DNA of 64,000 nt, taken from Tetradesmus obliquus (Eukaryota; Chlorophyta; Chlorophyceae; Sphaeropleales; Scenedesmaceae). Every line of letters starts with the position of its first letter. Positions within the stretch are counted from its first letter, which is position 1. The position numbers and the translations under genes are program-made. The stretch spans positions 4,740,716 to 4,804,715 of the forward strand of contig CP126204.1 in the NCBI GenBank assembly GCA_030272155.1, given 5' to 3'. Of the stretch, positions 23,024 to 63,650 are shown piece after piece. The notes beneath the pieces are model-generated. The model saw only the letters and a program-made list of their open reading frames with translations, did not search any database and was not told the origin of the DNA.

Positions 23024-24910
23024 GGGCAGCAGCAGGCTGGTGCAGCAGGGCATCTTGGCCCGACCAGCAGCTGCCTCCAGGGCCAGCAGCGTGCGTGCGT
23101 ACGCGCTGTCGGTGGGGGACAAGCTGCCGGAAACAAAGTTCCGCTACTTTGACAGCGAGGGTAACATGAAGGAGCTGGGCACTGAGCAGCTGTGCAAGGG
23201 CAAGAAGGTGGTGCTGTTTGCTGTGCCTGGCGCGTTCACGCCCACCTGCAGCATGAAGCACCTGCCGGGCTTCATTGAGAAGGCGGAGGAGATCAAGGTG
23301 GGGCGGCTGGCTGGCTGTCTTGGGAGGGGTGAAAGGTGGCCTGGGATGCAGCGTGCTCCTGCAGCTGTGAAAGAGGCAAGGGAGGGGAGGGGAACAGGGA
23401 AGGTTGTCTGGGGCGCAACAATGAAGGTGGGAGAGTCGGAGGGGCTGCCTCAGCTGCAGCATGGTGGCGGCCTGGGACGTGGCATGCTGTGGCAGGCAGT
23501 GTTGTCATGCTGATTGCACTACAACACAGCGGTGACGGCAGCAGCAGCAGCGGTGCCAGGCAGCAGGGTATGAGCAGGGATCGCCTGCTTGCTAGTCTGG
23601 CAGGCGAACCAGCAGGGTGTGCTGGACGTACAGCAGTGCATGCTTGCAGGATAAGGATATGCAATGCATGCACAGCAATTGCACAAGTGAGCTGTACGAT
23701 GCTGCTGTGGCACAGCAGCTTGCGCCGCCTCTGCACAGAGCCTGCAGCCGCGCTCTGTCCCTTCCTGGCTTGCAGCAAGCCGCCTCAGCTCCTGCTGGCT
23801 CCATGGTCTGCCAGGCTGCTGCCTCCATGCCTGTGTGCACATTCATGTTGCCATGCTCTACTGCCTGGCACCTGCACATACTTGATCCGGCGCTTGCCTT
23901 GCTGACACACATGTAACCTTCCCTTGCACTGCTGGCTCCCTCCGCAGTCTCGCGGCGTGGACGCCATCGGCTGCGTGAGCGTGAACGACGCGTTTGTGAT
24001 GGACGCGTGGGGCAAAAGCGTGGGCGCGGGCGACAAGGTGCTCATGCTGGCGGACGGCAACGGCCAGTTTGCCAAGGCCCTTGGGGTGGAGCTGGACCTT
24101 GCCGACAAGGGCCTGGGGCTGCGCAGCAGGCGCTACGCGCTGCTGGCCGAGGACCAGGTGGGTTGATTTTGGGGGATGCTGCAGCTGCTGATGGGGAATG
24201 GAACACGGCATTGGTGGGAGTGGTGTGCGAGCTGTTGCATAAGGTTTGGCATCTGTGGCGGTGGCAGTGGCAGCAGATGGCGCTACGCGCTGCTGGCTGA
24301 GGACCAGGTGGGGGCTGCTGGCAAGTTGGTAGTACACCTGGTAACAAAGGGTGTAATGGAAGGCGGTTAGACTGGTGGTGGATGAGCATCGTGGACAGCG
24401 GCAGTGGCAGGCGCTACGCTGTGCTGGGCGAGGACCAGGTGGGTCAGCTGATGCTTGGGCCGTCTGCTGCTGCTGTTGCTGCTGTGGAGCAGAACAAAAG
24501 TACAGCGGGGTTTGGGGTGGGCTGTTGCGTGGCGGGTTTCAGGGTTGGCTTTTGTGGCGGTGACAGCGAAGCAGATGATGTAATTTCGTGATGGTGTGGG
24601 GCTGGGGCTGCTAGCAACCAGTGAAGGTGTGCTATGCTGCATCTGCACTGCTGGTGGTCCATCGCCATCCAGTGCTGGCGATGATGGCTGTGCGTGGCCG
24701 CTCATCGTTGCTTGCAGGAACTGCGCACAGCTGGCTCTGAGGTTCTTTATGTTGCTGCTGGGTGATACAAGGCACTCACACCTGTTGTCGCTGCTGCCGC
24801 CGCTGCTGCTGCTGCTGCTGCCGCCTCAGGTGGTCAAGGTGCTCAACCTGGAGGAGGGCGGCGCCTTCACAGTCAGCAGCGCAGACGCCATCCTGGAGGC
24901 GCTGGCTTGA
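23024..24910 (+). CDS. PRXII: Type II peroxiredoxin, organelle type (PrxIIE-like)
   Basis: Exons: ?-23297, 23948-24157 and 24830-24910. The enzyme reduces hydrogen peroxide and organic hydroperoxides using glutaredoxin or thioredoxin. The peroxidatic Cys sits in PGAFTPTC and the second Cys in [12 protein letters not shown], the spacing typical of type II enzymes. Other hallmarks are [17 protein letters not shown] and the C-terminal [22 protein letters not shown], very close to plant chloroplast PrxIIE. The N-terminal stretch before SVGDKLPE is rich in Arg, Ser and Ala and looks like a plastid or mitochondrial transit peptide. The ATG exon is unresolved. The last intron contains two decoy copies of the exon 2 donor edge. 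Sense CTG repeats precede the last acceptor. A TGTAA lies at 25700. Confidence 0.92.
24279..24438 (+). repeat. Two copies of the peroxiredoxin exon donor edge
   Basis: The end of exon 2 (24129-24157, coding [10 protein letters not shown], followed by GTGGGT) is repeated at 24279-24307 and 24410-24438, each followed by GTGGG. All three have usable donors; only the first leads directly to the conserved protein. Confidence 0.85.
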
Positions 24911-25699
24911 GCAGCAGCAGCAGCTGGTGAAGCTGGCGAGGGTGGCAGCAGCAGGCAGTGATTCAGCAGTCCAGTGACTGGCTGGCTGACTGCAGCAGCA
25001 GGGCGCTGCCAGGCCAGCGGCGCAGACATTGCTGGAGCTTGCAGAGCGCAGTGGCATTGCGGCAGCAGCCAGCGCGGCATGGCACCGGCGCAATGCACTG
25101 CAGGTTTCTGTCTGCTGGGGGCGATGCCATGCTGATGTGCAGTGACAACTATTCAGAGGGTTGGTCGCGCCAGCAGCATCTGGCCAGCGCACACCTGTGT
25201 CCACTGCATCATGCTGCACACGCTGTCATGCATGGACTGCAGCCAGTCAGCCCGCTGCTGTCGTACTCGTAGTTACAGCAGCAGCAGCAGCAGCAGTGCG
25301 GCGCAGCGCTCTTTGGGGTGATGGAAGTGCCTGTGGTGCACCAACAGGCTGCCCACAGTTGCGTGTGCGGTTTGTGAGTAGGGTTGGCCATCAGGATAGG
25401 CACAGGCCAGTGTGTGTGAACAACATGCCAGTGACGAGTTGTATTCTGGTGCAACCAGCACTTTGGGTGATTTGCATGTGCAGCTGCGGCAGCAGGTCGG
25501 GAGTGACATCACCATGTTTGAATGTTGATCAGGCAGCACAGGGACGGAGTGTGCATCAGCCGCTGGCAGTGGATGGTTGTATTTCTAGCGACACTGTGAC
25601 TGCACTATGCCTCATTTTGTATGGCAGATGCGTGCATCATGATATTGTGCTACAGCATAGTAGTACTTGCTATCGCTGACTTGGTCAAGGCAGGAAAGT

Positions 25700-25704
25700 T
25701 GTAA
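25700..25704 (+). terminator. TGTAA polyadenylation signal candidate (peroxiredoxin)
   Basis: First clear TGTAA after the peroxiredoxin stop codon. Confidence 0.35.
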
Positions 25705-25780
25705 GCATCACACATTTCAACCGCTGTAGTCCTCCTGTAAGGCGGCTACGCGTGCTGGGGCAATCTGGCTAGGGGTCGAT

Positions 25781-25801
25781 GTCGATAACATGGTTATCGA
25801 C
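25781..25801. promoter_or_regulatory. Perfect short inverted repeat
   Basis: GTCGATAAC at 25781-25789 and its reverse complement at 25793-25801 form a hairpin or a dyad binding site. No adjacent coding region; role unknown. Confidence 0.4.
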
Positions 25802-26350
25802 TTGTGAGGCAGAGTTGGTGCTTACATGAGCAGCTGGCTAGTCAGCAACAGCAGCAAAACAAACTCTGGGTAAGGCCGATGGCGACGTTAGCTATGGCTT
25901 ACATGGTAACATGGTTGGCAGGCAGCAGCAAGCACCGGCCATTTGCCTTTATGTAAGTCTCTTGGGTGCATGAGTCAACTCATGCTGGCTGGTTGACCCG
26001 CCCAGCAGATGCCGCTGCATGCGGAGCAAACAGCCACTGACAACATACCCAGTAGGAACAATCAACGCATCAGACTAGGCTTTCAACGCAACCACTTTAA
26101 TTGGGTTGTTGGATCATGCGGTGTCAGCGATCATCCGGGTGCAGGGCGTACTGTCATGTTACTTGTTTTTGAATGAGTGCGCACGAACGCCGCTTTGAGC
26201 GTCTAAGAGTAGGTGACGATAAATGTTTGGTTGTATCTTCACATACTAGGTAGCCCAAAGATAACGAGCTTGAATTGCCACCATATTGGACTGGAGCACC
26301 ACAGCCCACAGTGAATCCACTTGTGTGTTGCCGCAGCTCAATCCCTCGGG

Positions 26351-27953
26351 ATGTTGGCGTTCATTGTTGCAGCGTACCAGCGCTCAGTGGACCTTGTGCA
26401 GCAGTTGCTTGACAGAGGGCAGCCAGTGGCAGCAGCAGATGTGCAGCGCCCCCCACCACTCCACCATGCAGCAGATGCTGAAGGCTGGACTCCGCTGGCC
26501 GATGCAGCCTTAGAAGGAGATGTGGACCGGGTGCGACTGCTGCTTGAGGAGGGGGCACCAGCGGCGGCAACAGATGCTGAAGGCTGGACGCCACTGCACC
26601 TCGCAGCTAGAGCTGGCCATGGCAGTGTGGTGGAACTGCTGCTACAGCATGGCGCCATAGTAGCAGCAGCAACAACAACCGGCATCATGCCTCTGCACAA
26701 AGCAGCCCAGCATGGTCATGCTGGCGTGGTGCAGCAGCTGCTGGCCGCAGGCGCGCCAGAGGCAGCTGCAGCAGCAGCGCACACCGACACTGCTGCTGCT
26801 GCAGATGCTGAAGGCTTGACACCCTGCACTGGGCATCCGCACAAGGGCATGTTGGTGTTATGCAGCTTCTGCTGCACCACGACAGGTCAGCAGCGGCAGC
26901 AGCAGTGGCAGCAGCAGATGTATATGGCCGGACATCACTGCACCTTGCAGCTGAAGCTGGCTATGCCAGTGCTGTGGAACTGCTGCTACAGCACGGTGCG
27001 GCAGTGGCAGCAGCAACCGCACATGGCCTGACATCACTGCACCTTGCAGCTGAAGCTGGCTATGCCAGTGTGGTGGAACTGCTGCTGCAGCACGGTACGG
27101 CAGCGGCAGCAGCAGATGAACACCACCGCACGCCGCTGTTTGAAGCAGTCAGGCATGGGCATGCTGGTGTGGTACAGCAGCTGCTGGCAGCAGGTGGGGC
27201 AGTGGCAGCTGCAGATTTTGAAGGTTGGACGCCGCTTAGCCTAGCCGCGTACTGTGGGCATGCTGCTGTGGTGCAGCAGCTGCTGGCTGGTGGAGCAGGA
27301 GCTGCAGTTGCAGATCTGGAGGCAGGACGCCACTGCATGAAGCAGCGCGTAAAGGCCATCTCGAAGTAGTGGTGCTGCTGCTGGGGCAGGGTGCATCAGT
27401 GGCAGCTACGAATGCAGCAGGCAAACCGCCAATCCACCAGGCAGCTGCAGGAGGCCATGCTGAAGTTGTGAGCCTGCTGCTAGAGCATGGCGCTTCCATG
27501 GCAGCAGCAGATTCCCGACGCCGCACACCCCTCCACTATGCAGCCCATCATGGTCATGTCAGTGTCGTGCGTCTGCTGCTGGAGAGGAGCGCGGCAGTGG
27601 AAGGCCGGACACTGCTGCACTTCGCTCAGCACTGGAGTTACTTTGGCGCCGCTGCCAGGCTGCTGACTGCCATGGAGCCTGAGCACGCGGCCCTGGTCGT
27701 GGAGGTGCTGCGCCAGTCCCCACAAGGCGCACAGGAGGAAGGTGTGTACAAGGCGTTTGCAGAATGTGTAACAGCCATGCAGGCGCTGGCACAGCAGCAG
27801 CAGGAGCAGCTGGACAGGCAGCGGCTGGCAGCGGAGCGCGCGGCAGTTCAAGAGCTGCTTGTTGCGGTGTACCTGGAGAGAAAGGCTCAGGCCGCTGAGT
27901 CCGATGATTCTGAGGAGTACTTTTCCGCTGGTTCCTCTGACGTTGATGAGTAG
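26351..27953 (+). pseudogene. Ankyrin-repeat protein with two single-base frame breaks
   Basis: Three consecutive frames encode about 12 ankyrin repeats of roughly 33 residues (for example GWTPLHLAARAGHGSVVELLLQ), followed by a Gln/Glu-rich helical tail and an acidic Ser-rich end (DDSEEYFSAGSSDVDE). Full length would be about 535 residues with no intron. The frame shifts by one base at 26822-26824 (CCC where neighbouring repeats predict CCCC) and at 27320-27322 (GG where GGG is expected). Repeat similarity is uninterrupted across both points. Since both sites are homopolymers, sequencing error is as likely as a real pseudogene. Ankyrin repeats mediate protein binding; the partner is unknown. 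ATG 26351 is the first in the repeat frame. If the breaks are errors this is a normal gene. Confidence 0.8.
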
Positions 27954-30297
27954 TCAACATGTAGCGCTCTGGAGGGCTCTGATGCTTCCTTCCTTGGGGC
28001 TCACAGGCTGAGCCACTAGTTGGCTGGTGAATGATGAATGGAAATGACTACATGCTGATGGCCACTGTATGAGGCTCTGCTTTGCTGAATGAACCTTTGC
28101 TGAATGAAGTATTTGATGTGATTGAGGGCTACTGAGCCTGAGACTTGAATTAAGCAGCGTTGGCGGTGTACAGCTTGCAGGCGTACTGCTGAAGGTTTAA
28201 AGTGGCTCTGTCGCACGGCCACTGCTGCCCGCCATGCTGGTTTGCTGGAAATGTTTAGTAAGCATGCTGGTGTGATTGAAATGGTTAGTCAGGCTGGCAC
28301 TGATTGGGCTGGCTGTGAATCCTTGAACTTTTGGCTTTTGCTTAGTCTTGGCACTTGAATATTAGAAAAGAGGGTATGAGCAGTGACATATGGGCAATCA
28401 ACAACTAGGCTAGAAGCTCTGCCAGTGGTAGTCACATGTGTCTGGTTATGGATGCGAGTTCTGTGTGCGGTATGCTGGGCAAGCATGCAGGTACGTTGCT
28501 GCAGCCTGGTGCGGTAGCAGGTAGGGGAGGTAGCCCTTTGTGCTCTACTTAACTCCTTGCAACCTCCGGGTGTTCAAGCGCTGCTGTATCCGAGTATTTT
28601 GAAGGTTCAATTGTGCACTCCAGGATGCGCAGGGGATCTATGCATTGGATGGCGGCTGACAGGCGAAGTTGGGGTTCGTTACTGCTGTGACTGTATTATG
28701 TGAATGTACGTGCCATCGTGCGTTTTTGATGTACTCAAGTGTGTGCAGCCTGAGAACGGTTCTCATGTCGTGCATTCTGTCATGCACCTTGTGCATGTTG
28801 TAGTGCTAGACAACAACGTCTTTCGAGCAAAGAACTGTATTTGGTGGGCATGTACAGCAGCAGTATTGTGGGTGGCTGAGCTGTCAGGCGGTCAGGTGGC
28901 CTGTTGCGTGCCACGGTGTGTGCCTGATGCGTGGTGATTCTTCTAACAGCGGCTGGACTGAGCCGGCTGTCGTTTCCAGCTGGACCCAGTGTAACATGCA
29001 TGTTGGCATATGCAACTATGCTGCATTTGGCACAGTATGATCACGAATTCCATAGTTTGCAGTCGGGACAGCAGGCAGCATAGACTTAAGCAGAATTGCC
29101 TGCTTCTGTTGCATATGACTTGTGAACTTGTGAAAGCAGGCACAAAGTTAAGCGATGCACTGTGTAGACGTAAGATTTGCAATGAGACAAGTGCCGCTTA
29201 TAGATAGAGGGGTTACACGGTGTGTTCATGCGGCATACGCCACCACAGACACCTGGTAAAATAGGAAGCTGCAAGCAGTGCCGCTTGCAGTGCAGCCCAG
29301 TGTCTCAAAGCTGAGGATGAATTGCAGAAAAACGTCAACTGCAGCATCGGTTGTGATGAACACTCGGTTGAGCTCAGCCTTGCTGGTTTTACTAAGAGGG
29401 GGCTATGATGGTGCCGGACCAAACCAACCACGCAATACCTTGCAAGTTAATCGCCTTCAACGATAATCTTGGCGCACCCTTGTCGGGTAGCAGTGGTTAT
29501 GTATCCAGCTAAGCAGCGTTGCCGCCTTGCTGTGATCGGCCAAAACACCACAACTCACACTGCTGCAAGCTGACAGCAGTCTTGCGTAGCACTGCTGAAA
29601 CACAATGCATGGCACACGTGATGACGCCTGCACCTCAGCCAGCAGTCCACTGTTTGCGGCTAAGCCACAGCAACCGGTACCGCTCTCACATACAAAGCCT
29701 CAGCGCCGTACAAGCATACAAGCCGCACCATTGTAGCCCCTATCGCCAGCCAGCATGCAATTGTAATGCCGGTCAATTACGTGCTTCTTCTCTACTCATC
29801 CAACTGAACTGCAAGCAGCAACTGCTGCATGCATCGCCTAAGCATGCACCAAAACCTGTGGCTGCACAGGCCAGACGGCAACGGGCAAGGTCCCGCAGCC
29901 GGCGAGTTCAAAGTAAATATGCAACGGCACGCCTACAGAACCAATTGAAAACTATCGTGTGCGCTACAACTGTAACAGACAGCTGCTGACTGCTGCTGAT
30001 TGACCATCACAGCCTGGCTGCAGCAGCAGTGCATTGCAGCACCCAGCAGAAACAACAGCCTGCGCCTGCTGCCATGCCTCTTAGCAGACACACCCTTAAC
30101 GCATGCGGCTGCTCACCAGCTTTCAAACAACCAACCTACCATGCCACCCCACTGGCATGGACGTCAGAATGGATGTAGACCTTTGCTGCTCCAACAACCA
30201 CAGCTGCCATCACAGCAAAACACAGGCTCGTGTGCACCAGCAGGAGGCTCCTCTGCACCGACACCAGGCTCAGCAGCCGGCTGTGGCGGCAGCTGGG
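27954..30297. other. Intergenic region between convergent genes
   Basis: Downstream of the ankyrin gene (TGTAA at 28990-28994) and downstream of the acidic Ser-rich gene on the minus strand (TTACA at 29213). AT content is somewhat higher than in genes and CAG triplets are rarer. ORFs such as 29519-29989 have no family resemblance. Confidence 0.45.
28990..28994 (+). terminator. TGTAA polyadenylation signal candidate (ankyrin gene)
   Basis: First TGTAA I find after the ankyrin stop codon, about 1 kb downstream. Confidence 0.25.
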
Positions 30298-32476
30298 TCA
30301 GCGGGCAGCACAGTAGCTGGGCACTGCTGTACGCAGCTGCTGAAGCGCACACGTGGCTGCACCTGACGGCCGCCAGGCAGCTGACTGCTGCAACCTGCTG
30401 CTGCTGGGCGGTGTGTGGTGAGCTGCCAGGCTGGGAACTCGCTGGGGGGTGGCGGGCGCCGCAGGATGCCCTGCAGGCAGCAAAACACAGTGCAGCAAGG
30501 CAGCAGTCGACAGCACCAATGTCAGCTGAAAGAGAATGACACAGCAGCGGTGTAGCACAGAACTGGAAGGCAGCAGTGCTGCATGTGCTGTTACTGGCTC
30601 ACTGTTCATCTGCCATTCAACAGCCATGGGTTGACCCGAGCTGAGCAAGTAGTGCAGCGCAGTCTGCTGGCGCACAAACTCGGCACAGCGTAGGTGCCAA
30701 TCATGATGCTGAGTTAAAGGCAGCGCTCCAGGGGCATGTGCCCCACTGCCCAGCAACCCGACAGTGCACGGCACCTACCTGCTTGCTGCAGCTGCTGGCT
30801 GCTGCCGTCGCTGCCATGCGCACGCGCCGCAGCCAGGTCCACTCTGCTGTCATGGCCGCCTCCTGGCGGGCCACCTCAGCTGGGGGGCGGCAGCGCTGCA
30901 GGCGGCAGCGCGCTGCGTCGTAGCTGCAGGCGCAGCAGCAATACAGGGGGCATGCGTCAGCAGAGCTTGAAATATGGAGCAAAGTGCGGCTTGAGGTACG
31001 TGCAGTTGTGCGCTGCGGTGTGAATGCGTGCATCTGCAGTAGCGGGAGCCTCCAGCACAGCATCAACTGCACTACGTCAGTAGATATTCATCTGCTCCTG
31101 CAGCTGTCGTCTTATTGCACTGCATGCACCAGTGCAATTGCCAGTCATCTGCTGCTGAATCATGCGCAGCACCTCAGCATGCACACTTCCGCACACCATC
31201 CCACAGCCCCACTCCTGCCACTCACTCCTGCCTGTACTGTGCCAGCTGCTGCGCCCCAGCCGCCCGGGGCAGCCCAGCCAGGTCCAGCCCCGCCCAGGCC
31301 GCCCCCTCAGCAGCAGCAGCAGCCAGCTGCAGCTCCAGGAAGGCCTCCCGCAGCTGCTGCTCCAGCGTGTCGGCTGTTGGTGCGTTGCCGGCGCCATCCA
31401 GGCGGGCCATGGTCAGCATGCCGCTGCTGCTGCCCGATGAATACGCCTGCAGGGAGACAGGAAGCATTAGAAGATTCCATGGGGTGGATGCAGTACATAG
31501 GCAACCCCTCATGCTGCTTGCTGATGGCAGCAGCTTGCAGGCACTCGCGGCTAGTGCTGTCACGTCGTTTTGAACCAACACCGCTGCCACCGCCGCACTT
31601 GACCCCAGCTAGCAAACATGCCCTCACTCCCAGCATGGCAACTGCAGAGCACACCAGCCGCTCACCTGCTTGGCAGAGCCTGCTGACCAGCTGCTGCTGC
31701 TGCCGCCAGCGTTGACCAGCGACTTGGGCACGCGCACGTACGCCATGCGCCGCGTCACCCCCAGCAGCGATGATGGCGGCACGTCCCACAGCACAGGGCC
31801 AGCAGCAGCAGCAGCAGTTGCTGCTGGGCTCGGCTGCACGTTGACTGCTGCCGATGACGGCGCCGCAGCTGCTGCTGCTTCCAGTGCTGTTGCTTGCGGT
31901 TCCTGTGCCTCCCTACTGTGCTGCTGGTGACTTGCACAGTGCACAGCTGTGGCAGCTTCAGCCCTGCATGTCGCTGCTGGGTGCGCCTTGAGTGCACCAG
32001 CCAGCGCCGGCTGCTGCTGCTGCTGCAGCTGCGGAGTGTTAGTGCGCTCTGCCAGTGGCTGCTTGACGTGACAGCACACTGCCACATCAACATCCTCCAC
32101 TGCTGCTGCTGCTGGCATGCAGGCGTGCTGCTCTGCAGGATCAGCTTGCTCCTGATCAGGCAGCGAAGCAGCAGCAGGTTGCTGCTCGCCCTGGTCACCT
32201 GCACTGTCCTGGCTGCGATTGCCCCACAGTGCTGCTGCGTCATGCTCGCCACCAGCAGCTGCTGTGTCACCTGTTATGGAAACACTGAGCACTGCATGAG
32301 CCTGCTGCTGCTTGTGACCTGGATGGCTGTCTGAGAGCTGCAGTGGCGGCAGCAGCCGTCGGCTGCCAGCGCTGCTGCTGCTGTGGTGCAGCCAGCTGTC
32401 CAGCAGGCTCATCATGCCGCTGCTGCCTGCTGCATCAACTGCTGCTGCTGCGCTGCCCTCAGCAGCCTGCTCCGCT

Positions 32477-32528
<52 letters not shown>

Positions 32529-35207
32529 CGAGCGCTGGCGACATCAGCAGCACAGCCCGCCGCTGTGCGACGCTGCTCAAGCTGCGGCTGCCACGTTGCT
32601 GGCTGCGCTGGCCTGACCCGTGCTGCTGCTGCTGCTGCTGCTGCTGCTGCAGCTGCTGCTTATTGTCAGCCTGCCCTGACAGTGAAGCAGACGGTGTGCA
32701 CTCAGGCGTGCAGGGGGCGGCAGCCACAGCAGGTGCAGCCTGACCGTCTGTCGCTTGGTCCTGCCCTTGCTGTGTATCTGCCTGGCTGCTGCTGTTGATG
32801 CGGCTGGCTGTGTTGGATGCATGTGGCGGTGTCAGCATCAGCCAGTCGGCTGCAGCAGTCTGGCCATCTGCTGCTGCGCCAGCTGCACTGCCTGCCAGCG
32901 TCCTGCTTGTGACTACTGGCGAGTCAGCAGACAGCATGCTGCCCAGAGCTCTGCACCCCTGCTGCTCTGTCGCTGCTGCTGCATCAGGCTCAACCGCAGC
33001 AGCAGCTGCTGCCGCAGCTGCAGCAGCAGGTGCCTGCAGCAGGCCCAGCAGCTGGGGCGTGCCGGGGCTGCGGCAGGCACGCTGCCTGCGCGACAACTCG
33101 CGCTGCTGCTCAGTCAGCACAGGCGTCTCCTGCAGCTGCTGTTGCTGCTGAGCAGGCTGGCTGCTGGCAGCTCTCTGAGCATGGCTGGCTGTGCAGGGTG
33201 GCGTGCGCTGCCGCCGCTGAGCAGCAGCAGGCGTGAGCGTAGCCTGCGCTCGCCTTGGTGGCGCTATATGCCACTGTGGCTGCTGCTGCTGCATGTGCAG
33301 TTGCAGGCGTACTGGAGATGGTGAGTCATCAGCGGCAACTGTGCTGCTGTCAGTGTCCTCACTGCTGCTGGAGCCTTCACTGCTGCTGGTGTCTTTGCTG
33401 CTGCTGCTTGCACTGCTGCTAGACTCCTCACTGCTGCTCACGTCACTTCCACTGGTGTCACTACTGCTTGACGTGCACTGCCCACCCTGCTGGGTAGGCA
33501 CCTGCTGCTGCTGCTGCTGCTGCTGCAGCTGCGGCTGGTCGGGTTGCGCTGGCCGCAGCGATGATGCAGCCTCAAGTGCGGCATCAGGCGCATCACTGTC
33601 GCCTTGCTGCTGACTGCTGCCACTGTCAGCGCTGCTGGCAATGTTGTCACTGCTGCTGGTGTCACTACTGCTTGTGTCGCTGCTGCTTGTTTCACTACTG
33701 CTTGTGTCACTGCTACTGCTGCTTGTAGCATCACTGTCCTGTGCAGCGGCAGCAGCCACAGCAGCAGCATCTGGCGGCTGCTGGGTTGTGACTATAGCAC
33801 CGCCAGCATTCTGCTTGTCAGCAGCTGCTGCAACTGCTGCTGCCTGTAGTGCTGTGCCTGCCACACTCACAGCAGGTTTGGCTGCAACCACATCTTGCAT
33901 GTTGCCCTGTCTGCGCTGTGATGGTTGCAGTGGTGCCAGCAGCCGCCTGCGGCCTGCGCTGCTGTTGCAGCTGCTGCCACGCAGCGCCTTGCTGGCGGGG
34001 CTGCCCACAGCCCCAGCCTGGCTGCCGCCGCCACCTGCTGCAAGGCCGGCAAGGCCGCCTGCCATTGCAGTGCCAGCGCCAGCAGCAGCTGCTGCAGCAG
34101 TGGCTGTCGTCATCAGCAGCGCAGCTCGCCGCTGTGCGATGCTGCTCAAGGAGCGCTGCTGGCTGCGCTGAGCTGGCAGCTGCTGCTGCTGGGGCGGCAG
34201 CAGCTGCTTGGCCTGCTGGGCTGGCAGCGGCACAGCCAGTGCCACTTTAGGGTGGGGGGCATCCGGCTCAGCGTCGCTGCTGTCAGTGTCGTCACTGCTG
34301 CTGGTGTCTTCGCTGCTGCTCGACTCCTCACTGCTGCTGCTGCTGCTGCTGGAGTCGCTGCCACTGCTGACGTCGCTGCTGCTGGCATCAGTGCTGCTGT
34401 CACCACTGCTGCTCGTGCTGCCACTGCTGCAGCTGCTTGTGTCACCGTCTGTGTCACCTGACTGCACAGGGTCAGCAGCCGAAGCATTGGGCGGCGTGCT
34501 TGCAGGAGTCGTGTCACAATCCATCGCATCGTTGCTGGCTGCAGGCAGCACAGTCTGCTGGCTGGCCTGGCTGCAGCCCTGCCCAGCAGAACGAATGGTG
34601 CCTTTTGCTGCTGCTGAGTGTAATGCTTGGACTGCAGCTTTTGGCGATGCTCCTTGCGGCACTGCTGCTGCTGCTGCTGCATCCGGCCCTGTGGCGTGCG
34701 CCTGTGTGGCAAGGGCAGGCCCAGCATCAGCACCAGCAGCTGCGCGGCCGTGCATGAGCTGCAGCAGACTTGGTAGCAGACGCTGCTGCTGCTGCCGCAG
34801 TGTGCTGCTGTGGCTGGCCAGCTGCTGTGCTGCCTGCCAGGGCTGCTGCAGTTGTGTGAGGCGCTGCAGCGGCACGCCAGGTGGCCCCTGCTGCGCCCTG
34901 AGGGCAGCTGCCTGCTGCAACACCTCAAGTTTGCACACCTGCAGCAGACGAGCGAGGTGAACTAATATGCATCTGAAATGAAGGCAGCAGTGTTGTATGC
35001 ATGCCAGTAGGTCAGCCGGCACATCTGCACATGTCTGAATTGATCAGCATGCCATGCTGGCTGGGTGTTGGTGACCTGGGCAGCTCAACAACAGGCACGC
35101 ACCTCCAAGCTGCGCAGGGCGGCAGCCATCGGGCCAGAAGGCTCTGGCCTCATCTTCCTGGCGACACATCGCGCCTGCTGCTGCGGCTGCTGCCTCTTTC
35201 GCTTCAT
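30298..35207 (-). CDS. Large acidic Ser/Asp/Glu-rich protein with an internal repeat; unknown function
   Basis: Exons join in phase: 35207-35103 (start MKRKRQQPQQQ, a basic, nuclear-signal-like N-terminus), 34938-31666, 31446-31226, 30923-30779 and 30708 onward. The protein exceeds 1250 residues. The giant exon 2 contains three phosphoserine-like blocks of Ser runs broken by Asp/Glu (codons about 34460-34260, 33730-33640 and 33480-33330), which would be casein kinase 2 targets. It also contains two copies of a module beginning SLSSVAQRRAVLLM / SLSSIAQRRAALLM and ending in RRLL(A/P)PLQ. The last exons are conventional helical sequence (YDAARCRLQRC, AEWTWLRRVRMAATAA, HDWHLRCAEFVRQQTALHYLLSS) and probably hold the conserved domain, which I cannot name. 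The C-terminus is unresolved beyond about 30600. Nuclear localisation is inference. Confidence 0.65.
32479..32525. repeat. CAG/GCA microsatellite, poly-Ala coding on the minus strand
   Basis: Pure triplet tract in exon 2 of the acidic protein gene, encoding about 16 Ala on the minus strand next to the second SLSS module. Confidence 0.85.
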
Positions 35208-39468: not shown

Positions 39469-39501
<33 letters not shown>

Positions 39502-40030
39502 GTGCATGCAGGGCCTGGTGCACAACTACTGCCTGGTGTCGCCCCTCGAGTGGATCTGCCAGGCCAAGGGCTGCTGCCACCCCTGCGCGCCCGAGAACCG
39601 CGCCGAGGTGCAGTGTACGAAGTTTATCGACTACGGCACACTGGAGTTCAGGCCCACCGGCAACTGCCCCCGCAGCTGCTGCGCCGGCGAGTGCAGGGTG
39701 CTGTGGACTGAGCCCGGCTCCCGCTCTGCCCAGTGGGCCAGCGGCACCTGCTCCAGCCACTTTGATGAGGAGGATGACGACCGCAGGCGCTCCCTGCTGC
39801 AGGTGGCTGAGGAGGCTGCTGCTGCCCCTGACAACGAGCTGCCAGTCTCTGAGGTGCCTGAGGACGCCATCTTCCTGAATGATGACGGCAGCATGCGTGA
39901 GGTCCCTGCCAGCAGCCCCGGCAGGCGCCTGCTGACTGATGACAATGAGTGCCCCAGCGGCTGGCGCGACAGCGGCAAGTCCTGCAGCCTGCGCGGCTGC
40001 GGTACGTGCTGCATCAGGAGGAGGCGCTAG
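38233..40030 (+). CDS. Secreted Cys-rich protein with signal peptide and Ig-like N-terminal domain
   Basis: Exons 38233-38339, 38666-38812, 39128-39197 and 39512-40030 join in phase and encode 280 residues. Residues 1-21 (MKPAATLLALALALCLGAALA) are a classical signal peptide. Residues 22-100 show the pattern of a small beta-sandwich (ITVKVYDCKGN, LPGASVRISGC, TTNASGIAYF), like transthyretin/carboxypeptidase-regulatory or Ole e 1-type domains; this is inference. Then comes a Cys-dense module (ICQAKGCCHPCAPENR, CPRSCCAGECRVLW, SGTCSSH), an acidic linker with RRRSLLQ and GRRLL dibasic sites of the kind common in algal extracellular proteins, and a last Cys cluster (CSLRGCGTCCIRRRR). Likely a cell-wall or extracellular-matrix protein, possibly proteolytically processed. 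No named family recognised. TGTAA follows at 40541. Confidence 0.8.
39361..39420 (+). repeat. 10-bp tandem repeat, six units
   Basis: Six consecutive 10-mers related to GCCATGCGTT lie in the last intron of the secreted-protein gene; each contains the near-palindrome GCCATGC or a variant. Confidence 0.9.
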
Positions 40031-41127: not shown

Positions 41128-41328
41128 ATGAAGCCTGCGTTGCTGCAGCGTAGGCTGTCTGGGCCCCGGACACACCTGCTGCTGCCAGCAGCACCGCGTC
41201 CTGCTGCTTGTAACCCTAGCATCAGGAAACGGAGCAAGAGCTGCGTCGAAGCAGCATGCAGGAGGCTTAGCAAGCAGGTGCGTCTGTCTGATCAGCGCTG
41301 TTGCCAGCAGTGGTGATAGGGGGTGTTG

Positions 41329-41414
<86 letters not shown>

Positions 41415-42694
41415 ACTGCTCCTCCTCCTCCGCGTTGCAATGTGTTAGAGTTCAGCAGCATGTCAATGGATAGGGACATTTAGCTGAACATATTAAGATT
41501 GGTTTGGTGGTGTGCCTTGACTGCAGGGCAAGAGCAGGCAGCCCCTCGTATGTGCTGCCAGCGCTGCAGGCGCAGTGCCAGGCGACAGCAGCGGCAGCAG
41601 CAGCGAGCCTGGGGTGTTCAGCCCCCTGGAGCAGCGGCTGGGCAGCATCTGCAAGACGCTGACCACGCTGTTCCCGCTGTGGGTGGTGGGCGCGGCGCTG
41701 TTGGGCTTCCACCACCCGCCCGCCTTCCTGTGGTTCACTGACACCTACGTGACCTGGAGCCTCATCTTCTGCATGCTGGCCATGGTGGGTGGCTGCGAGC
41801 AGCTGCAGCTGAGCGGATGGTGTGTGCTCATGGCTTTGTGGTTAGTTATTTGTCCATGCTGCTTTAAGTGCCTTGGTTTGGTTCAGGTGCCTTGGTTTGC
41901 AGGCAGTTGCCGGCTGGTGCGTGCAGCTGTGTGCCGACCTGCTGCTGGGGTGCAAGGGCGGGGTTGGCATGTGTGCCGAGTTGCCTCGGATGCACGGCAC
42001 TGCTGAAAATGCCACTTTGCTGCAGTTACCGTGTTTCCCATGCATCTTTCGGGCGTGCACCTGCTGCTGCATTCCCATTTTCTGCCTCACAACTGCCTGC
42101 CTTCCTATGCTGCTGCCGCTGCAGGGGCTCACGCTGACCTTTGAGGAGATTGCCAGTGTGTTCACACGCAGCCCGCAGCTGCTGCTGCTGGGCATGGTGA
42201 GGGGACGCTGGCAGATACAGCAGCAGCGCAGCAACAGCAGGAATGGCAGCTGACATGTGCGGTAGTGTGGCTTCAGTGTTACTCATCCTACTGCTTGCTG
42301 CATCCATGCCGGCTGTAGCAGCAGCAATGTATGTACGGCGTCTCCCTTGCGCGCCAGACAGCAGGTGGCAGTGCCTTCAGCCGGCCTGGCCCATATGTGA
42401 CACAGGCACACAGTGCTCATAGAGTGCTGCAATGCTGCGGCAGTTGTCAGGACACTTCCTGCACTGCATGGGGTGCTCTACTGTGGCTTGCGCTATCAGA
42501 GTTGCAGCAGCAAGCAACCAGCACCTCCGTCACACAGCTATGATAGAGCGCTGCGGTTTGTTTTTCAGACGTGCTGCTGCCGTGTGTGCTGTGCTACAGG
42601 TGCTGCAGTACTCAGTGCTGCCGCTGATTGGCTTTGCCATCAGCCGCCACTGGGGGCTGTCCTCAAGCCTGGCCATTGGAGTGGCGCTGGTGAG

Positions 42695-42725
<31 letters not shown>

Positions 42726-43527
42726 AGGGTGGTGCGCACACACCAGCAGACCGATGGCAGCTGCAGCAGCAACAGCAGCACAGGGCAGGACGTTATTGCG
42801 CCTGAGCATGTTGACCAGCCTGACAAATGACAGGGCTGTAGTGTCTGACGGGGAGGAAGCAGCATCAACAACAAGGGCAGCAGCTGCTTCCTTCTGTGGA
42901 TCGCCACAGTCACGCGCCTGCTGCGCTGACGCTGCCATCCTGCCCAACCTGCATGTCCTGCCTGCCGCACTGCAGGTGTCTTGCATGCCTGGCGGCACCG
43001 CGTCCAACATCGTGGCCTACATTGCGCGTGGCGACATGCCGCTGTCCATCATGATGACCACAGCAAGCACCATCATGGCGGTCTTCACCACGCCGCTGCT
43101 GACGAGTTTGTTGGTGGGCACGCTGGTGCCTGTTGACGCGCGTGCCATGTTCCTGAGCGTGCTGCAGCTGGTGCTGGCGCCTGTCATTGTGGGCACGGCA
43201 GCCAACCAGCTCTTCCCCCGGGTGAGTGACGTCCAGTGTGGGGTGGTGCGGGCAGTAGATTGGGGGCGGGGTGGCTTTTGGATTATGTCTGTAAATACAA
43301 AAGTGGTGCTGACACCAGCTGACGTTAAGCGGCAGCCGGCGTGGAGTGCAGGGGACGTGGGGCGTTTGCAAGTTGTTTGACATGTAGGGTGCAGGGAGAC
43401 ATGCCAGCGGCAGGGCTGATGCGTGTGCTGCAACTACACAAGGGCTGCTAGGTGCCAGCCGCAATGCTGGGCGTGTGTCGAAGCCGTGCCTTTGTGTCTG
43501 CAAGCAAGCCTGATCATCCTGCTGGCA

Positions 43528-43584
<57 letters not shown>

Positions 43585-44821
43585 TCCCATCCCTGCAGGC
43601 CGTGCAGCGGCTGCGCATCTACACGCCGCTGGCCGCCACCGCTGCTGTGGTCATGATCGTGGGCAGCATGATCGCCACCAACGTGTCTGTGGTGGCTGCC
43701 AGTGGGCTGGCCATCATCACTGCCGTGCTGACGCTGCACAGCTGCGGCTTTGGGCTGGGTTACTTCATCAGCAAGGGCCTGGGGCTCAGCGACAGAGTGT
43801 GCAGGACCAACGCCATAGAGGTGGGTGTGGGGTGGTGTGCCAGGGGGTGGGCTCGCAAGGGGTCAGCGGGAGGGTTAGATTGGGTGCTGATGGTGCTGGT
43901 GTGGTGGCGTGCGGGTGTGTTAGTGAACATGAAGCAGCAGTTGCGGCAGGGTAATCTCACCAGTCGGCTCAGCGACAGAGTGTGCAGGACCAACGCCATA
44001 GAGGTGGGGAGGGTGGTGTGCTGGAGGCGAGGACACTCAAGGCGCAACAGCAGTGGCAGATGTAGGGTGCTGAAGTTTCTGACTGCTGTTTCTCTGGTCT
44101 GCCTCTGCTGGATGTTGTGCTGCTGACCAGCGCAGCAGCAACGCGCAAGGCACATGCGCATTCGTGCTGTGATGCATTCATTGGCGTGCCTGCTCATGTT
44201 GTTACCACCTCTGTTGTGTTGCTTGCCACCGTTCCGTTCACGACACGTATCCTGCCACCGTTCCGTTCACGACACGTATCCTGCCACCGTTCCGTTCACG
44301 ACACGTATCCTGCCGCCTGCTCTTCTCTGAACGCTGCAGGTGGGCATGCAGAACTCAGCACTGGCTGCTGTGTTAGCAAGGGCCCACTTTGGTGACGCGC
44401 ACATGGCAGTGGTGCCTTGCGTGCTGTCCGCCTGTACACACGCCACACTGGGTTCCCTGCTGGCTGGCTACTGGAATGCACAGCTAGAGCGGCAGGAGAG
44501 CCAGCAGCAGCAGCAGGCGTAGCAGCAGCAGCAGGCATAGCCGCTGCAGCGGCAGGTGGCAGCAGCAGGCGTAGGCGCTAGCAGTAGGCTGTCCTAGTCC
44601 CTAGGGTTGCTTGCTGAGCCCTGCATGCCTGCTGCTGCTGCTGCTGCTGCTGCCAGGTGGGCATGCAGTCCAGTGCGCTGGCTGCTGTGCTGGCGCGCAA
44701 GCACTTCCCGCATGACCCCATGATCGTGGCGCCCTGCGTGCTGTCGGCCTGTACACACGCCACGCTGGGCTCGCTACTGGCAGGCTACTGGAACCTCACC
44801 TCAAAGGACGAGGAGCAGTAA
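41128..44821 (+). CDS. Bile acid:sodium symporter (BASS) family transporter, plastid-type
   Basis: Exons 41128-41277, 41527-41784, 42125-42196, 42600-42689, 42976-43221, 43599-43820, then either 44340-44522 or 44657-44821. All joins are in phase; the products are 406 or 400 residues. Residues 1-50 are basic and Ser/Ala-rich with few acids, like a chloroplast transit peptide. The rest has the hydrophobic segments of the BASS fold with family motifs LTLTFEE, CMPGGTASNIVAYIARGD, LAPVIVGTAANQLFP and VGMQNSALA..LA..HF. In plants this family moves pyruvate, 2-keto acids or glucosinolate intermediates across the plastid envelope with sodium; the substrate here cannot be told. The two last exons are tandem copies, each with its own acceptor and stop. 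Intron 1 carries about 27 pure CTG triplets. Exon 6 has an exact donor-edge copy in the next intron. Confidence 0.9.
41328..41413. repeat. CTG microsatellite in BASS intron 1
   Basis: About 27 uninterrupted CTG triplets (roughly 41333-41413) in sense orientation, the longest pure tract in the window. Confidence 0.95.
43966..44003 (+). repeat. Exact copy of the BASS exon 6 donor edge
   Basis: The last 38 bases of exon 6 (43783-43820) recur without a mismatch at 43966-44003, again followed by GTGGG. The distance (183 bp) is a multiple of three and the intervening sequence is open, so use of the second donor would add 61 residues in frame. Confidence 0.9.
44225..44311 (+). repeat. 29-bp tandem repeat, three units
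   Basis: Three identical copies of a 29-mer beginning GCCACCGTTCCG and ending CGTATCCT, in the intron just before the first alternative last exon of the BASS gene. Confidence 0.95.
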
Positions 44822-45783
44822 GGGTATTAAAAGGACAGCAGCAGCGCGGCTAGGGCGGCTGGCGCAGCAGCGGAGGCAGCAGGGGAGCGGCTGTGGCAGC
44901 GACAGCAACACAGCAGCGGCGGCAGCAGCAGCGTCAGCTTGGGTGCTCCCTGGCCCCTGACATGTTCCCCTGCAGTGGCTGGTTCCGGCCCTTGTGTGGT
45001 GTTGTGCTGCACGTCTGATGGGTAGCTTGCACATCTGCAGCTTACTCTCCCTCACTGTGCTCTACGCAGTCATCATTTCATGCTTCACCAAAGATTGTGG
45101 TTGCACATTGAATGTGGTTCACCACAGGCAGCAGCAGAGAGGTCGTTGTATCAACAGAGCATTTGTCACACTTGATGCTTTCCAAGCCATCAGCAGATGC
45201 TGATGAAGTGAGGGTCTTGCATAATCACAATTGTGGTCTGGTGGTTGGGGAGTCTTTTGTTCCACGCATGTCGCAGCAAGCTGGTTGGTGGTCATCGTGC
45301 ACAACTGCAGCTTGCATCAAAGATTGGGCGCCATGCAGACATGTGCTGCTCCATTTTTGTGCCGTAGCTCAAGTGGATCGTGTAATGCAGGCAGCATGAC
45401 GAAGTGGTGTTATTGCCTTGAGCAGCAGGACTGCCAAACCCTACTGCCAGCCTGGCAGTGAGCCTGGCAGCCTGCTCAGTGAGCAGGAGGACTGAGGTTG
45501 GCCCAGGCAGGAATGAAACACGGAGACAATTGAGAAAGAGCACATCTAGACGGTGGCGCTGGCTGTTCAGAAGCGCACGCATCAACCCCCAGGGGCGCGG
45601 TACCTGACAGACAAGATCTGTCACACGCCACCGAGTGATTAGTCACGTGAAGCAAGTGCCATCTGCAGCTCGAAAAGTGCACGCGCAGCCAAGAAAGCAT
45701 TTTTGAATGAATATGGTTGCGGTTGCGTGATTCACGAGCTGCAGCTTGTCGGCCGGATCTGCAGCAGCAGGGCGAACAGCAGC
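44822..45783. other. Intergenic region between BASS and methyltransferase genes
   Basis: Contains a TGTAA at 45381-45385 as BASS polyadenylation signal and the methyltransferase promoter. No supported coding region. Confidence 0.55.
45381..45385 (+). terminator. TGTAA polyadenylation signal (BASS gene)
   Basis: TGTAA 560 bases after the distal BASS stop codon. Confidence 0.4.
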
Positions 45784-46945
45784 ATGAAGGTGGTCTCCCT
45801 GTTCACAGGAGCGGGGGGGCTGGACCTCGGCCTGCACCAGGTTGGCTTCACAATTAAATGTTTACTGTGATTGTTAGCTTCAAAACAGTGATCTGCACGG
45901 CGAACACGGGCCAGCTTCGCTGCTGCCTAACTCCCAAGGCAGCGCCAGCACAGCACCTCCCCACCCCTGACCGCTGCTCACCCAACGACGCTGCGCTGTC
46001 CTGCAGGCCGGACACGAGATTATATTGCAATGTGAGATTGATCCAGGCGCGCAGCAGGTGCGGATGTGCAGCGCACGGCTGCCAAGGTCCCACTGCAAGC
46101 ATACTACCCTGCGCCTGCACTGCCTGCGCCAGGATGTACACGCCAGGCAGCAGCAACATTCGGACGCCCCAACAGCTGTGGTTTTTTTCTCGCAGGTGCT
46201 GCGCAAGGCGTTCCCTGGCACGCTGCTGGTGCCTGACGTGTGTGGCCTGCAGGCGCTGCCCAAGGTAAGGCTTTGCGCCTGGCTGGCTCCCTGCCTGGAT
46301 CCTCACGCATTGGCGGCGCTACAGCGCTCTTCCTGCACATAAGATGTTGATGACTAATCGTGTCTGTGCACGAGGAAGAAAAGCTGGTATAGGAGGGAAA
46401 TTGCAGACTGCACTGCTGGCGCTGCTGCTGCTGCTCCCAGGCTGCAGCCAGCCATGGGACACACGCCTCTGCTGGGCAGCCACTCGCTGTGATCAGTGTT
46501 TGTGGTTTTCGAACATGAACGTGTGCAGCATCGAGCATGCATGCAATGCAGTGCAAGAGTGCACTTTGCTCGCCTGGCACTGCCTGCTACCTTGTTTCCT
46601 ACTGAGTAGCTCACAGCCCTTATCACTGTATGCAGTGACGCACTGGCCTACACGGAGGCTGCCACATCAACCACACAGCAAATCTGGACGACGGCTCTCC
46701 TGATCCCCTGTGTCTTCACACAGCTGTATGTGTGCCTCACCACTCAACCAGGACTGCATGTCCCGCTGCCTGCCCTCTCGTTTGTATCACTGCTGCTGCT
46801 GATGCAGGAGACTGACGTGCTGGCTGCTGGCGCTCTGTGCAACGCTGGCATATGCAGCATGCCTGCAAAACGTACCATCATGTTTGCAGCACTGCCTGAC
46901 CACAGCTCTGGCCCCTTGGGCCCGTGCTGCTGCTGCTGCCGCCGC

Positions 46946-46976
<31 letters not shown>

Positions 46977-46982
46977 ACTGAC

Positions 46983-47050
<68 letters not shown>

Positions 47051-50000
47051 GCCTGCAGGAGACTGAGCTGCTGGCTGCTGGCTTCCCCTGCATCGACGTC
47101 AGCAGGGCAGGGCTGCGTGCAGGGCTGGAGGGAGTGGTGAGGGGGTGGCCTGCTGGGGGTGCTTCACGCCTGCATACACAGCGGCAGCAGCCTGCTGTAT
47201 GCCACCTGGCATGCTGGTTGTTGTCACAACAGCAGCAGCCGATCAAAGCCAGCTGCTGCTGAATAACATACTGCTGTGAGCGTGCTCTTATACTTGTATT
47301 TTCTAGGCTGATTCATTTTCACCAGCCTGACAGATCATTTCTGCACCTGCACTTGCTGCTGCTGCTGCTACTGCTGCTGTGGCGTGCAGTCCACGGGCCT
47401 GGTGCGTCATGTGTTCAGGCTGCTGGCGCAGGCCAGGAGCGACCAGCGGTCCGTGCCCTGGGTGCTGCTGGAGAACGTGAGCGGGGCTTGTGTGTGGTGT
47501 GGTGTGGTGTGGGGTGGAGTAGGGTGTTGTGGGGTGAGGGGGAAGGCGATGCTGCCAGCTGGTGCTGCCTCAGCTGCGGCTACGCTCAACTGCACTGTGG
47601 CAACACTTGTGCTGCCAACCCTTGCCATGTAGCTGCTAGTGCCACGCGCTCCAATCTGCTTGTCACGAAATGGCTATGGACTGTGGCGCTGTGCCTCCAC
47701 TGCGCTTTTGTAAGCTTGATGTGCTGCATTATGCTGCTGCTGCTGCTGCTGGCCCCGCCGCACCCTCCAGGTTGAGGCGCTGCTGGACCGCTGCCATGGC
47801 GGGCCTCCGCTGGTGTCCTGGGTGGTGGGCCAGCTGGAGGCGCTGGGCTACAGCAGCTGGGCACACCGCGTGGTCAGCTCAGCAGGTACGGGGTTATTGG
47901 GTTTGTGTGCATGCGGCCGTGCATGTAATGCCTTGCGCTTATGTTCCAGAGCCGATTGTGTTGGGCTACAGCAGCTGGGCACACCGCGTGGTCAGCTCAG
48001 CAGGTGGGGTGGGTGCTGGGCATGGTGGGGGTTGGGCCCTAAGCTAAGCACGTTGCAGTTGCGAGAGCATTTGTGCTTCTGCCCCTCATGGTGACACAGC
48101 TGTGCCAAGGCCGCTGCAGAGGCCCATCGGGGCAGCAGGCTGCATGCGGGAATCAATGGCATATGAGCGTCCTGCCTGCACCTGGCAATATGTCTAACTT
48201 GGAGTTGTTAAGCTGCTTTACTGTGAAAGGGAGCATTCTGCTACCTGCCGCTGCCGCTGCTGCTGCGCCTGGCCAGGCTTTGGCGTGCCCAACAGGCGGC
48301 GCCGCATCTTCATCCTTGCTTCCATGCACGGCGATGCGCGCGATGTGCTGCTGGGCCAGGTGGGGGCAAAGGCGTCTGGGTTGTCGGTGGACGGAGCTGT
48401 TGCATGCTGCACACGCGCAATACATGCCAGCTGCTTGGCAGGCAAAGTCAAGTGCAAGCATACATGTGCAACACATGTGACATTGTAACCTGCTGATGGC
48501 TGTGCTGCTGTTGGGTGAGCTGGCAGCTACATGGCAGTAAGCTGCGCTGCTCTGCTGGAATGTGGTCATGACCTACATCAGCTCATCAGCAGTCGCCCTG
48601 CATCTCAACCTCCACTACTGCTGCTGCTGCTGCTGCTGCTGCCGCTGCTGCTGCCGCTGCAGGGGCTGCAGCGCTGCATGGGCTCCTGCCTGTCAGCCGT
48701 TGGGGGTGACTGCTGGGAGTGCTTCGACCCTGATGACGACCCCGCCACTGGCAGCAGGAGCGAGGCGGCCATGCTGCGCTGCAGCTACGCACTGGACCTG
48801 GGCAATGCACGGTGCGTGGTAACGGAGAAGCTGCGTTTGCAGGCTCGCTTGCGGTTGGTGCGCTGGTCAGGGAGACAGCTGCGTGTGTTGAAGCTTGCTG
48901 GAGGCTGCAGCAGTGCTTGCAAACGCACCGTGGCACTTCACATCCTCAGCCAGCCATTGCTGCTGTGGGATGTGCACAAAAGGCAACTGGCTACAAAGAT
49001 GCATGACAGGCAGCACAATGGCTTCGCTTTCCGCTGAGGAATGCTACCTTCAAGCTGCTGCTGCTGCCCCGCAGGTCTGCTGCTGGCGTGGACGTGGTGC
49101 CCACCTTCACCACCAGCAACGCGCGCATCTGCCTGCTGCTGTCAAGCGGCAAGTACGGAGCGCTGCGCATTGAGGACGCTGAGCGGCTGCAGGTGGGGCG
49201 TGCATGTGTGTGGATGGCGGTGTTGCGGCCTGACAGCTGTTTGTTGCAGGATGTGGAGGGTGGATGAGTGATGCGCGTGTGGATCAAAGCATGGCAGCTT
49301 GCCGACTTGCAGTATAGGCTGATTGCGTTGCAACTGCAAGCAGATGTGAGGCAGAAGCAGGACCATGAGGGCCAGTCAGCCTTCTCTTGCTTTGGGCATC
49401 ACGGCGTGGATGTCGCTTGGATCACAGCAAAGCCTTTGGCATGTAATACGTGCTGGTCCCGCTGTTGAGCTGCCTGCTGCTGACTGCTGCTGCCTGCTCT
49501 GCTGCTGCCAGGGCCTGCCAGTGGGCCACACTGCTGCCTGCTACCCGGTGGCCAGCCCAGGCATACGCCAGCACAGGGGCCCTGCGCTGCGTGACAGTGA
49601 TTCTGATGCGCAGGCGCGCACCCGCTTTGCGCTGCTGGGCAACGCAGTCACAGTGCAGGTGGGAGCGGCCTTTTCTTTGAAGGCAAAAAGTGAAGTCAGC
49701 GATAGGAGGGACCAGAGACTGGGTGCAGGTTGAGTTGTTTGAGCTGATGTCTGGGTCAGTCTGGCAGGAACAGGTGCCTCCTGTGTTGCATGCAAGCGCA
49801 TAAACAGGGACGCATGCTGGCACCTTCAGTCGTCATCTAAAGCAGAGTGAAAACTAGCGGGCTGCAGCATGTGTGGCCACCAATCAGGCTCCAGTTCCCA
49901 GCTTGGACTTTGTCATAATATATTCAAAACACACGGGTGCAATGTCCCTCCTGCCGCATGTTGTAGCGCCAGTTCATGTCTGCTGCCTTGCTTGCTGCTG

Positions 50001-50702
50001 CGCCAGGTTGCGCGCTGGCTTGGTGAGCGGCTGGCTGACCCGTACCGCTTCAAGTACATGGCCACTGACAACGACATGCCGCTCATGAGGGCCTTCCAGC
50101 CCACAGCACTGGAGGACAGGTGGGGAGAGGGGTGGTGGTGTCAGTGCGGCAGCACACACCCTAGGGTGTGTTTGCAGGACAGCCCATGAGGGCCCTCCAG
50201 CCCACAGCCCTGGAGGACAGGTGGGTATCTTTGGGAAGCAGGCACAGCCCAAGGCAGGCTGGAGAATGGTTTCTTTTGGCATGGCTTCTTGGGGCCTTTG
50301 GCCGCTAGCCCTGGACGGCAGGTGGGGTAAGGGGGTTGGTTCCAGTGCGGCAGCAAGAGCCCTGGGATGTTGGGGGTGTGTTTGACTTTGCAGGACAGCT
50401 CATGAGGGCCTTCAGGCCGACATCCCTGGACGACGGGTGGTGGGAGGGATGGAGGCCTGTCTCAGTAGGTCACCCCCCGGGTGATGGCTGCATGGGTGAC
50501 GTTGCAGGACAGCTCCTTGGGTGTGACGCTGACACCACTTACAGGTGTGACATTGTGGCAGCGCATGGCTGTGGGCCGCAGTGACTGCAGGCAGCTGGTC
50601 AGACGTTGCCCCTGTGTTTGGTGCCTGGGGAGTATGTTCATTGATGGGCTTGGGATGCTTGGCAGTGTGAACTCTCCTACAATTTTAACATGCTTGTTCC
50701 TC

Positions 50703-63640: not shown

Positions 63641-63650
63641 TTTTTCTAGG

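Follow-up and report, generated by a model that had tools for sequence, protein, structure and literature searches.

Results

Exon-edge echoes at a chromosome end

The window, by which we mean the whole stretch of 64,000 nucleotides of Tetradesmus obliquus DNA that was analysed (C14:4740716-4804715), reaches the end of a 4.8-Mb chromosome, and a TTTAGGG telomere array at 63507-64000 closes the contig. Its predicted genes include those for a RING protein, a VPS9 protein, a peroxiredoxin, a BASS-family protein and a C5 DNA methyltransferase, as well as an unnamed gene. Pfam backs the names RING, VPS9, peroxiredoxin (Redoxin) and methyltransferase, and the BASS-family protein predicted from the window matches T. 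obliquus proteins, including P0002 (OEZ86_008852). In these genes the edge of an exon recurs, with its splice site, in a neighbouring intron; we call such a copy an echo of the exon edge (Table 1). The initial annotation had named cases in all six genes, and every one of them is present at its window coordinates. In the VPS9 array at 11552..11827 the unit is 123 bp long and the match still extends over 122 bp of it.

Repeats of other kinds occur in the window as well. A BASS intron holds a 29-bp unit in three exact copies (44224-44314), and coding repeats at 26468-27558 and 58877-59691 inflate the local repeat counts; these are ankyrin-like (as judged by eye) with a 99-bp period, and a second family with a 114-bp period.

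Table 1. Exon edges and their echoes in the window (d, spacing between copies).
Feature	Position in window	Strand	Remarks
RING gene, echo of exon 5' edge	177..214	+	Exon copy 296-333; predicted exon start 299; d=119; RING Pfam
VPS9, exon 3' edge and two downstream copies	11552..11827	-	Predicted exon 11795-11987; d=117, 123, 240; VPS9 Pfam
VPS9, exon 5' edge (12877-12913) and echo (12979-13015)	12877..13015	-	d=102; 36/37 identical
Unnamed gene, echo and exon 5' edge	15529-15549 (echo); 15694-15714 (edge)	+	d=165; predicted exon start 15698
Peroxiredoxin, exon 3' edge and donor	24129..24162	+	Exon end 24157; Redoxin Pfam
Peroxiredoxin, first echo with donor	24279..24312	+	33/34 identical to exon copy
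Peroxiredoxin, second echo with donor	24407..24444	+	Match at 24410
BASS, exon 3' edge and donor	43783..43825	+	Exon end 43820
BASS, echo with donor	43966..44008	+	43/43 identical; intron halves z=3.1
BASS last exon, first tandem copy	44341..44522	+	Ends TAG; C-terminus found in P0001
BASS last exon, second tandem copy	44657..44821	+	Ends TAA; C-terminus in P0002-P0004 and relatives
C5 DNA methyltransferase, exon 3' edge	47844..47887	+	Exon 47771-47885
Methyltransferase, echo	47962..48005	+	44/44 identical; intron homology not found
Methyltransferase, exon 3' edge and donor	50084..50124	+	Exon end 50119
Methyltransferase, first echo of the 50084..50124 edge, with donor	50185..50225	+	
Methyltransferase, second, more diverged echo of the same edge	50387..50452	+	Match at 50398
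Methyltransferase, acceptor-side repeat, 5' edge	50383-50401 / 50497-50515	+	TTTGCAG and following bases

Echoes are frequent, local and concentrated at predicted junctions

The genome assembly comprises 104.66 Mb (104.7 Mb) in 17 contigs. For the statistics reported below we combined the window with 25 stretches of 10 kb taken at arbitrary positions, which gives a sample of 314 kb, or 0.3% of the genome; simple repeats were masked before local copies were sought. Splice junctions were mostly predicted ab initio, by a gene finder that we wrote and trained on T. obliquus sample sequence. The donor motif of the trained finder is close to CAG|GTG and its acceptor motif close to TGCAG, and it predicts 475 introns in the sample. 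Proteins support the models of BASS, the C5 DNA methyltransferase (Scenedesmus P0121) and glutamate-cysteine ligase; for the last of these an echo-free spliced model, assembled partly by eye, matches a database protein of Scenedesmus acutus with 100% identity. Two array-rich loci, L017 and L023, are dropped from the counts where stated.

The sample contains 169 non-redundant direct pairs at spacings of 50-599, that is, roughly one for every 1.9 kb, and 2 inverted local pairs within 700 bp. Orientation is therefore in effect direct only (2 inverted among 171 local pairs). Templated insertion at breaks is expected to leave copies in both orientations, and the 2 of 171 rule against it. In the 25 sampled stretches, spacings of d=100-149 yield 105 segments scoring at least 20 and spacings of d=150-249 yield 132, where arrays are counted repeatedly, as compared with 13 for d=2000-2499 and none for d=5000-5499. 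The near-empty distant diagonals, together with the masking of simple repeats, rule out chance or low complexity as the source of the copies.

Pairs are present in 21 of the 25 sampled stretches, with 19 in L024 alone and none in L002, L003, L008 and L021. When L017 and L023 are left out, 81 of 147 pairs have one or both copies of the matched segment lying across a predicted junction, against 38.7 expected. The claim of the initial annotation that such copies are local, more common than chance and found elsewhere in the genome is thus borne out. We count 57 donor-type and 44 acceptor-type pairs (against 475 predicted introns), and the counts are not additive since the two lists share some pairs. 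The spacing of junction-type pairs has a median of 152 bp and quartiles of 118-261.

The edges of the matches, tested per copy against the gene models, are placed unevenly around the junctions. Right edges fall 0 to +11 nt past donors in 42 cases and +12 to +23 nt past them in 20 cases, against 7.2 expected for each interval, and 28 left edges lie in the interval -12 to -1 ahead of acceptors, against 7.5 expected. In the same test across the sample, left edges do not pile up at donors, and right edges do not pile up at acceptors except in one bin, 19-24 nt before acceptors (13 against 3.6), which lies outside the reading proposed below. An annotation-free motif profile finds donors inside right edges 57 times against 26.8 at -5 to -1, and 38 times against 25.6 at -10 to -6. 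The profile shows scarcely any enrichment of acceptors at left edges (54 against 47.8), and the gene-model test is clearer.

Some genes are unusually rich in such copies. A gene with a Tra1-like domain in L024 has an edge copy at most of its predicted exons, and the glutamate-cysteine ligase gene (L006 1687-5590) has an echo at most exons, a 151-bp unit repeated in an array around 3767-4463, and a copy of its last exon that includes the stop codon.

Duplication does not seem to be aimed at splice junctions

The concentration of match edges at donors and acceptors is what would be expected if exon edges and their splice signals were copied as such, whether from an RNA template or at R-loops, and the initial annotation had raised a duplication process of this kind. 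To the intronic part of each donor-type pair we applied a gapped alignment with low complexity masked, over up to 200 nt, with a separate control for each pair. Significant residual similarity was found in 38 of 57 pairs (33 of 52 without L017 and L023) and was lacking in 19. In those 38 pairs the intron remains similar past the junction, and the copied unit therefore did not stop there. When only 50 intron nucleotides are considered, z exceeds 3 in 19 of 41 pairs, and in 12 of 33 after removal of 8 arrays or coding repeats that were chosen after the values had been seen. Ungapped identity (44 pairs) declines gradually, from 0.86-1.0 over the last 6 exon bases to 0.77-0.93 at +1 to +6 and to 0.48-0.55 at +9 to +14 past the donor; unrelated donors give 0.25-0.31. 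RNA or cDNA was rejected as the source of the copies, given the intron nucleotides that follow the donor in the pairs printed out.

We also compared the placement of the duplicated units with random placement. The number of units crossing junctions, divided by the number that cross or are intron-only, is 0.64, 0.68 and 0.66 under three ways of drawing the units. Random placement gives 0.59-0.60 +/- 0.05, and the observed values were reached in 57, 11 and 30 of 300 simulations, respectively. The surviving match, as opposed to the unit, crosses a junction in 0.47-0.50 against 0.27 +/- 0.04 at random. Raw counts are higher than random both for crossing units (72-75 against 54-56) and for whole footprints (95 against 64.6), and exon-only units are depleted (16-18 against 29-30). 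We read the excess of crossing units as arising because exon-only units have been lost, as purifying selection predicts, although a modest preference of duplication for junctions may remain compatible with the raw counts.

Duplication itself, then, does not seem to be aimed at splice sites, and a process tied to splicing or R-loops finds no support as the main one, given the placement of units, which is near random among the surviving classes, and the intron homology. The last-exon match in the glutamate-cysteine ligase gene points the same way, since it stops 2 nt beyond the stop codon, at a place without a splice signal. Identical pairs lacking intron homology, such as 47844/47962 and L024 1370/1651, do agree with splice-tied copying, and pairs of this sort could be insertions of the exon edge alone; as a general account, we consider such copying very unlikely.

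The echoes carry a coding type of constraint

Differences between exon and echo were classified by their effect on the exon's codons. The 52 donor-type pairs show 120 synonymous differences, 76 nonsynonymous differences and 3 stops, a synonymous share of 0.60, and the 39 acceptor-type pairs show 63, 37 and 0, a share of 0.63; neutral change would be expected to be 27-28% synonymous. An echo might, however, be no more than neutral debris of tandem duplication, in which the exon is conserved while the intron copies diverge by ordinary decay. We therefore ran simulations of tandem duplication in which the exon is constrained, and passed the products through the same detection procedure as the observed pairs. 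When the echo is neutral, the synonymous share comes to 0.43, and matches run at least 60 nt into the intron in 121 of 278 cases (44 of 174 with more indels). With an echo at omega 0.36 the share is 0.61 and such runs occur in 114 of 749, and with omega 0.1 these values are 0.77 and 31 of 852. The observed matches run at least 60 nt into the intron in 2 of 52. From the observed share of 0.60-0.63 and the scarcity of long intron runs it follows that the echo is constrained in a coding sense.

As far as these comparisons of sequence reach, the echoes are under coding-type constraint, though an incomplete one, with stops in 3 of 52 and GT lost in 8 of 52 donor-type pairs. Decayed echoes do exist, such as that of L006 2722/2873, with an in-frame stop and a lost GT. 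The echo's GT is kept in 44 of 52 donor-type pairs, close to the neutral expectation, and the loss in the other 8 is near the level predicted by overall divergence. Selection keeping spare splice sites had been suggested in the initial annotation; the selective part of that suggestion stands, since the echoes are constrained, but in a coding sense, and the rate of GT loss gives the splice sites themselves no distinction. Neutral debris shares its tandem origin with the explanation that we favour below and is in keeping with the decayed echoes and the GT counts, but it falls short on both the synonymous share and the intron runs, and we regard it as quite unlikely.

Most echoes look unsuited to use as exons

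The main rival explanation of a coding-type constraint is that the echoes are functional alternative exons or splice sites, kept by selection on the isoforms that they encode. The BASS gene conforms to this explanation: it has two complete tandem last exons with different C-termini, and both C-termini are found among T. obliquus database proteins. The annotated glutamate-cysteine ligase P0175 (OEZ86_012514) likewise runs on across the intron as far as the donor of the L006 3376 echo. In addition, acceptor-type echoes, measured to the best donor, have a length divisible by 3 in 19 of 40 cases against 13.3 expected, which is a weak hint of use.

The remaining evidence tells against alternative exons. 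Duplication of a whole exon with both splice sites was found for the BASS last exon, and the other pairs printed out are partial exon ends. Measured from the best acceptor, only 17 of 52 donor-type echoes have a length divisible by 3, the acceptors near these echoes are by rank no better than elsewhere, and an open, in-frame read-through reaches the echo in 3 of 46. With no frame signal in either count, donor-type echoes were rejected as cassette or read-through exons. P0177 (OEZ85) and P0172 (S. acutus) do not use the glutamate-cysteine ligase echo at L006 3376. Most echoes thus do not look like usable exons, being partial, mostly out of frame when donor-type and rarely open to read-through, and we hold selection on isoforms to be an unlikely general explanation, although one to be taken seriously.

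The same proteins bear upon the possibility that the echoes are artefacts of assembly, such as interleaved haplotypes. Differences of a synonymous type between copies do look like allelic ones. Nevertheless, the assembly consists of only 17 contigs, and that of the window ends in a telomere array; the duplicated BASS last exon has a counterpart in P0001, a protein from another T. obliquus record; and P0175, which encodes the glutamate-cysteine ligase echo, lies on a contig (6749178 bases) separate from C5 (6747500), which holds L006. We consider an artefact extremely unlikely.

Exon/echo identity is uncoupled from intron decay

If exon and echo diverged in a clock-like manner, pairs with more similar exonic parts should also retain more intron homology. 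Over the 41 pairs of the intron z-score set, whose values were entered by hand, the correlation is rho -0.13, whereas four simulated clock-like models give 0.66-0.79, and the observed value was reached in 0 of 1000 draws per model. Simulated neutral debris, in particular, gives 0.76. Without arrays and coding repeats (33 pairs) rho is -0.06, and it is 0.08 for the 23 pairs at 90% identity or more. That is, identity is uncoupled from flank divergence, the behaviour looked for under gene conversion.

Among the 28 pairs with little intron homology, 7 have at least 97% identity, for which the models give 0.4, 0.5, 3 and 8%, and 11 have at least 94%. Under the most constrained model, in which synonymous sites are half constrained in both copies, the excess has p=0.13 at the 94% threshold and p=0.006 at the 97% threshold. 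Some pairs combine identical exon parts with decayed yet recognisable intron halves: BASS 43783/43966, where the exon part is identical at 38 of 38 positions and the intron gives z=3.1, a pair in L009, and L024 2764. This is the pattern that homogenisation would leave.

Discussion

A proposed origin by tandem duplication and homogenisation

The explanation that we favour, and to which we give roughly an even chance, is that tandem duplication came first and that exon and echo were then homogenised, through gene conversion, under coding constraint. Short direct tandem duplications, mostly of about 120-260 bp, are frequent in this genome, and in genes they take little account of where the splice sites lie. 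Where a unit spans an exon-intron boundary, the original outer site would still splice the normal mRNA, so that the duplication could survive, leaving a second exon edge inside the intron. In line with this, the methyltransferase and glutamate-cysteine ligase echoes are missing from the spliced proteins of relatives. The intronic halves then diverge, until the visible match shrinks to the exon edge and its splice signal. At the level of sequence statistics, these steps, from tandem duplication to the shrunken match, are supported by the results above.

Over their exonic half the copies stay more similar than drift would permit; the similarity is of a coding kind and does not depend on age. In the proposed mechanism, exon and echo would swap sequence by short gene conversion, and those changes in the echo that damage the exon when copied back would be weeded out. 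Homogenisation with second-hand selection of this kind would explain why the matches end at functional limits, including the limit 2 nt past a stop codon. We infer the exchange between exon and echo from such patterns, and some of the donor-type pairs that lack significant intron homology (19/57) may instead be edge-only insertions. A stronger version, in which frequent gene conversion with the exon exposes untranslated echoes to purifying selection and so preserves them as shadow exon ends, is a tentative suggestion that we think more probably wrong than right by a good measure. If it were true, non-coding DNA would gain a second-hand constraint at the level of codons, and introns would fill with conversion-locked exon edges.

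The echoes of T. obliquus illustrate a way in which exon edges can enlarge introns, and the genome offers a natural test of the interplay between spare splice sites, gene conversion and selection. They also mislead gene prediction: our gene finder called several of them as exons, and the annotated P0175 runs to an echo donor.

Relation to known systems

A search of the open-access PMC literature brought up no report that we recognised of exon-edge copies in Tetradesmus or Scenedesmus. Splice variants have been reported for a gene of Scenedesmus acutus (PMC12899622), in an article whose main text contains no word starting with duplicat- or repeat-.

Tandem exon duplication and mutually exclusive exons are known (PMC9013439; PMC5740500). 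The echoes resemble them in that a direct copy of exon sequence lies nearby in the intron with splice signals of its own, and the BASS last exon is a full case. Here, however, the copies are mostly partial exon ends, which are mostly incompatible in frame when donor-type, and they are so common that nearly every exon in some genes has one.

In the potato RdRp gene a tandem genomic duplication over an exon-intron boundary gave rise to a new intron (PMC4974935). That duplication, like ours, crosses a boundary and inherits its splice signals from the parent structure. In the three genes checked here (BASS, methyltransferase and glutamate-cysteine ligase), by contrast, the spliced proteins join the exons that flank the whole intron; no new intron is gained, and the extra edge lies inside an existing one. 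Human OCT1 is likewise reported to have bases duplicated at an exon-intron junction, a small duplication of 8 bp (PMC8137991). It differs from the echoes in affecting a single site, whereas here tens of bp are copied at many junctions.

Gene conversion between duplicates, or concerted evolution, leaves copies that are more alike than their age would imply. Exon and echo are alike in this same way, but here homogenisation is proposed only for the exonic half of junction-spanning duplications.
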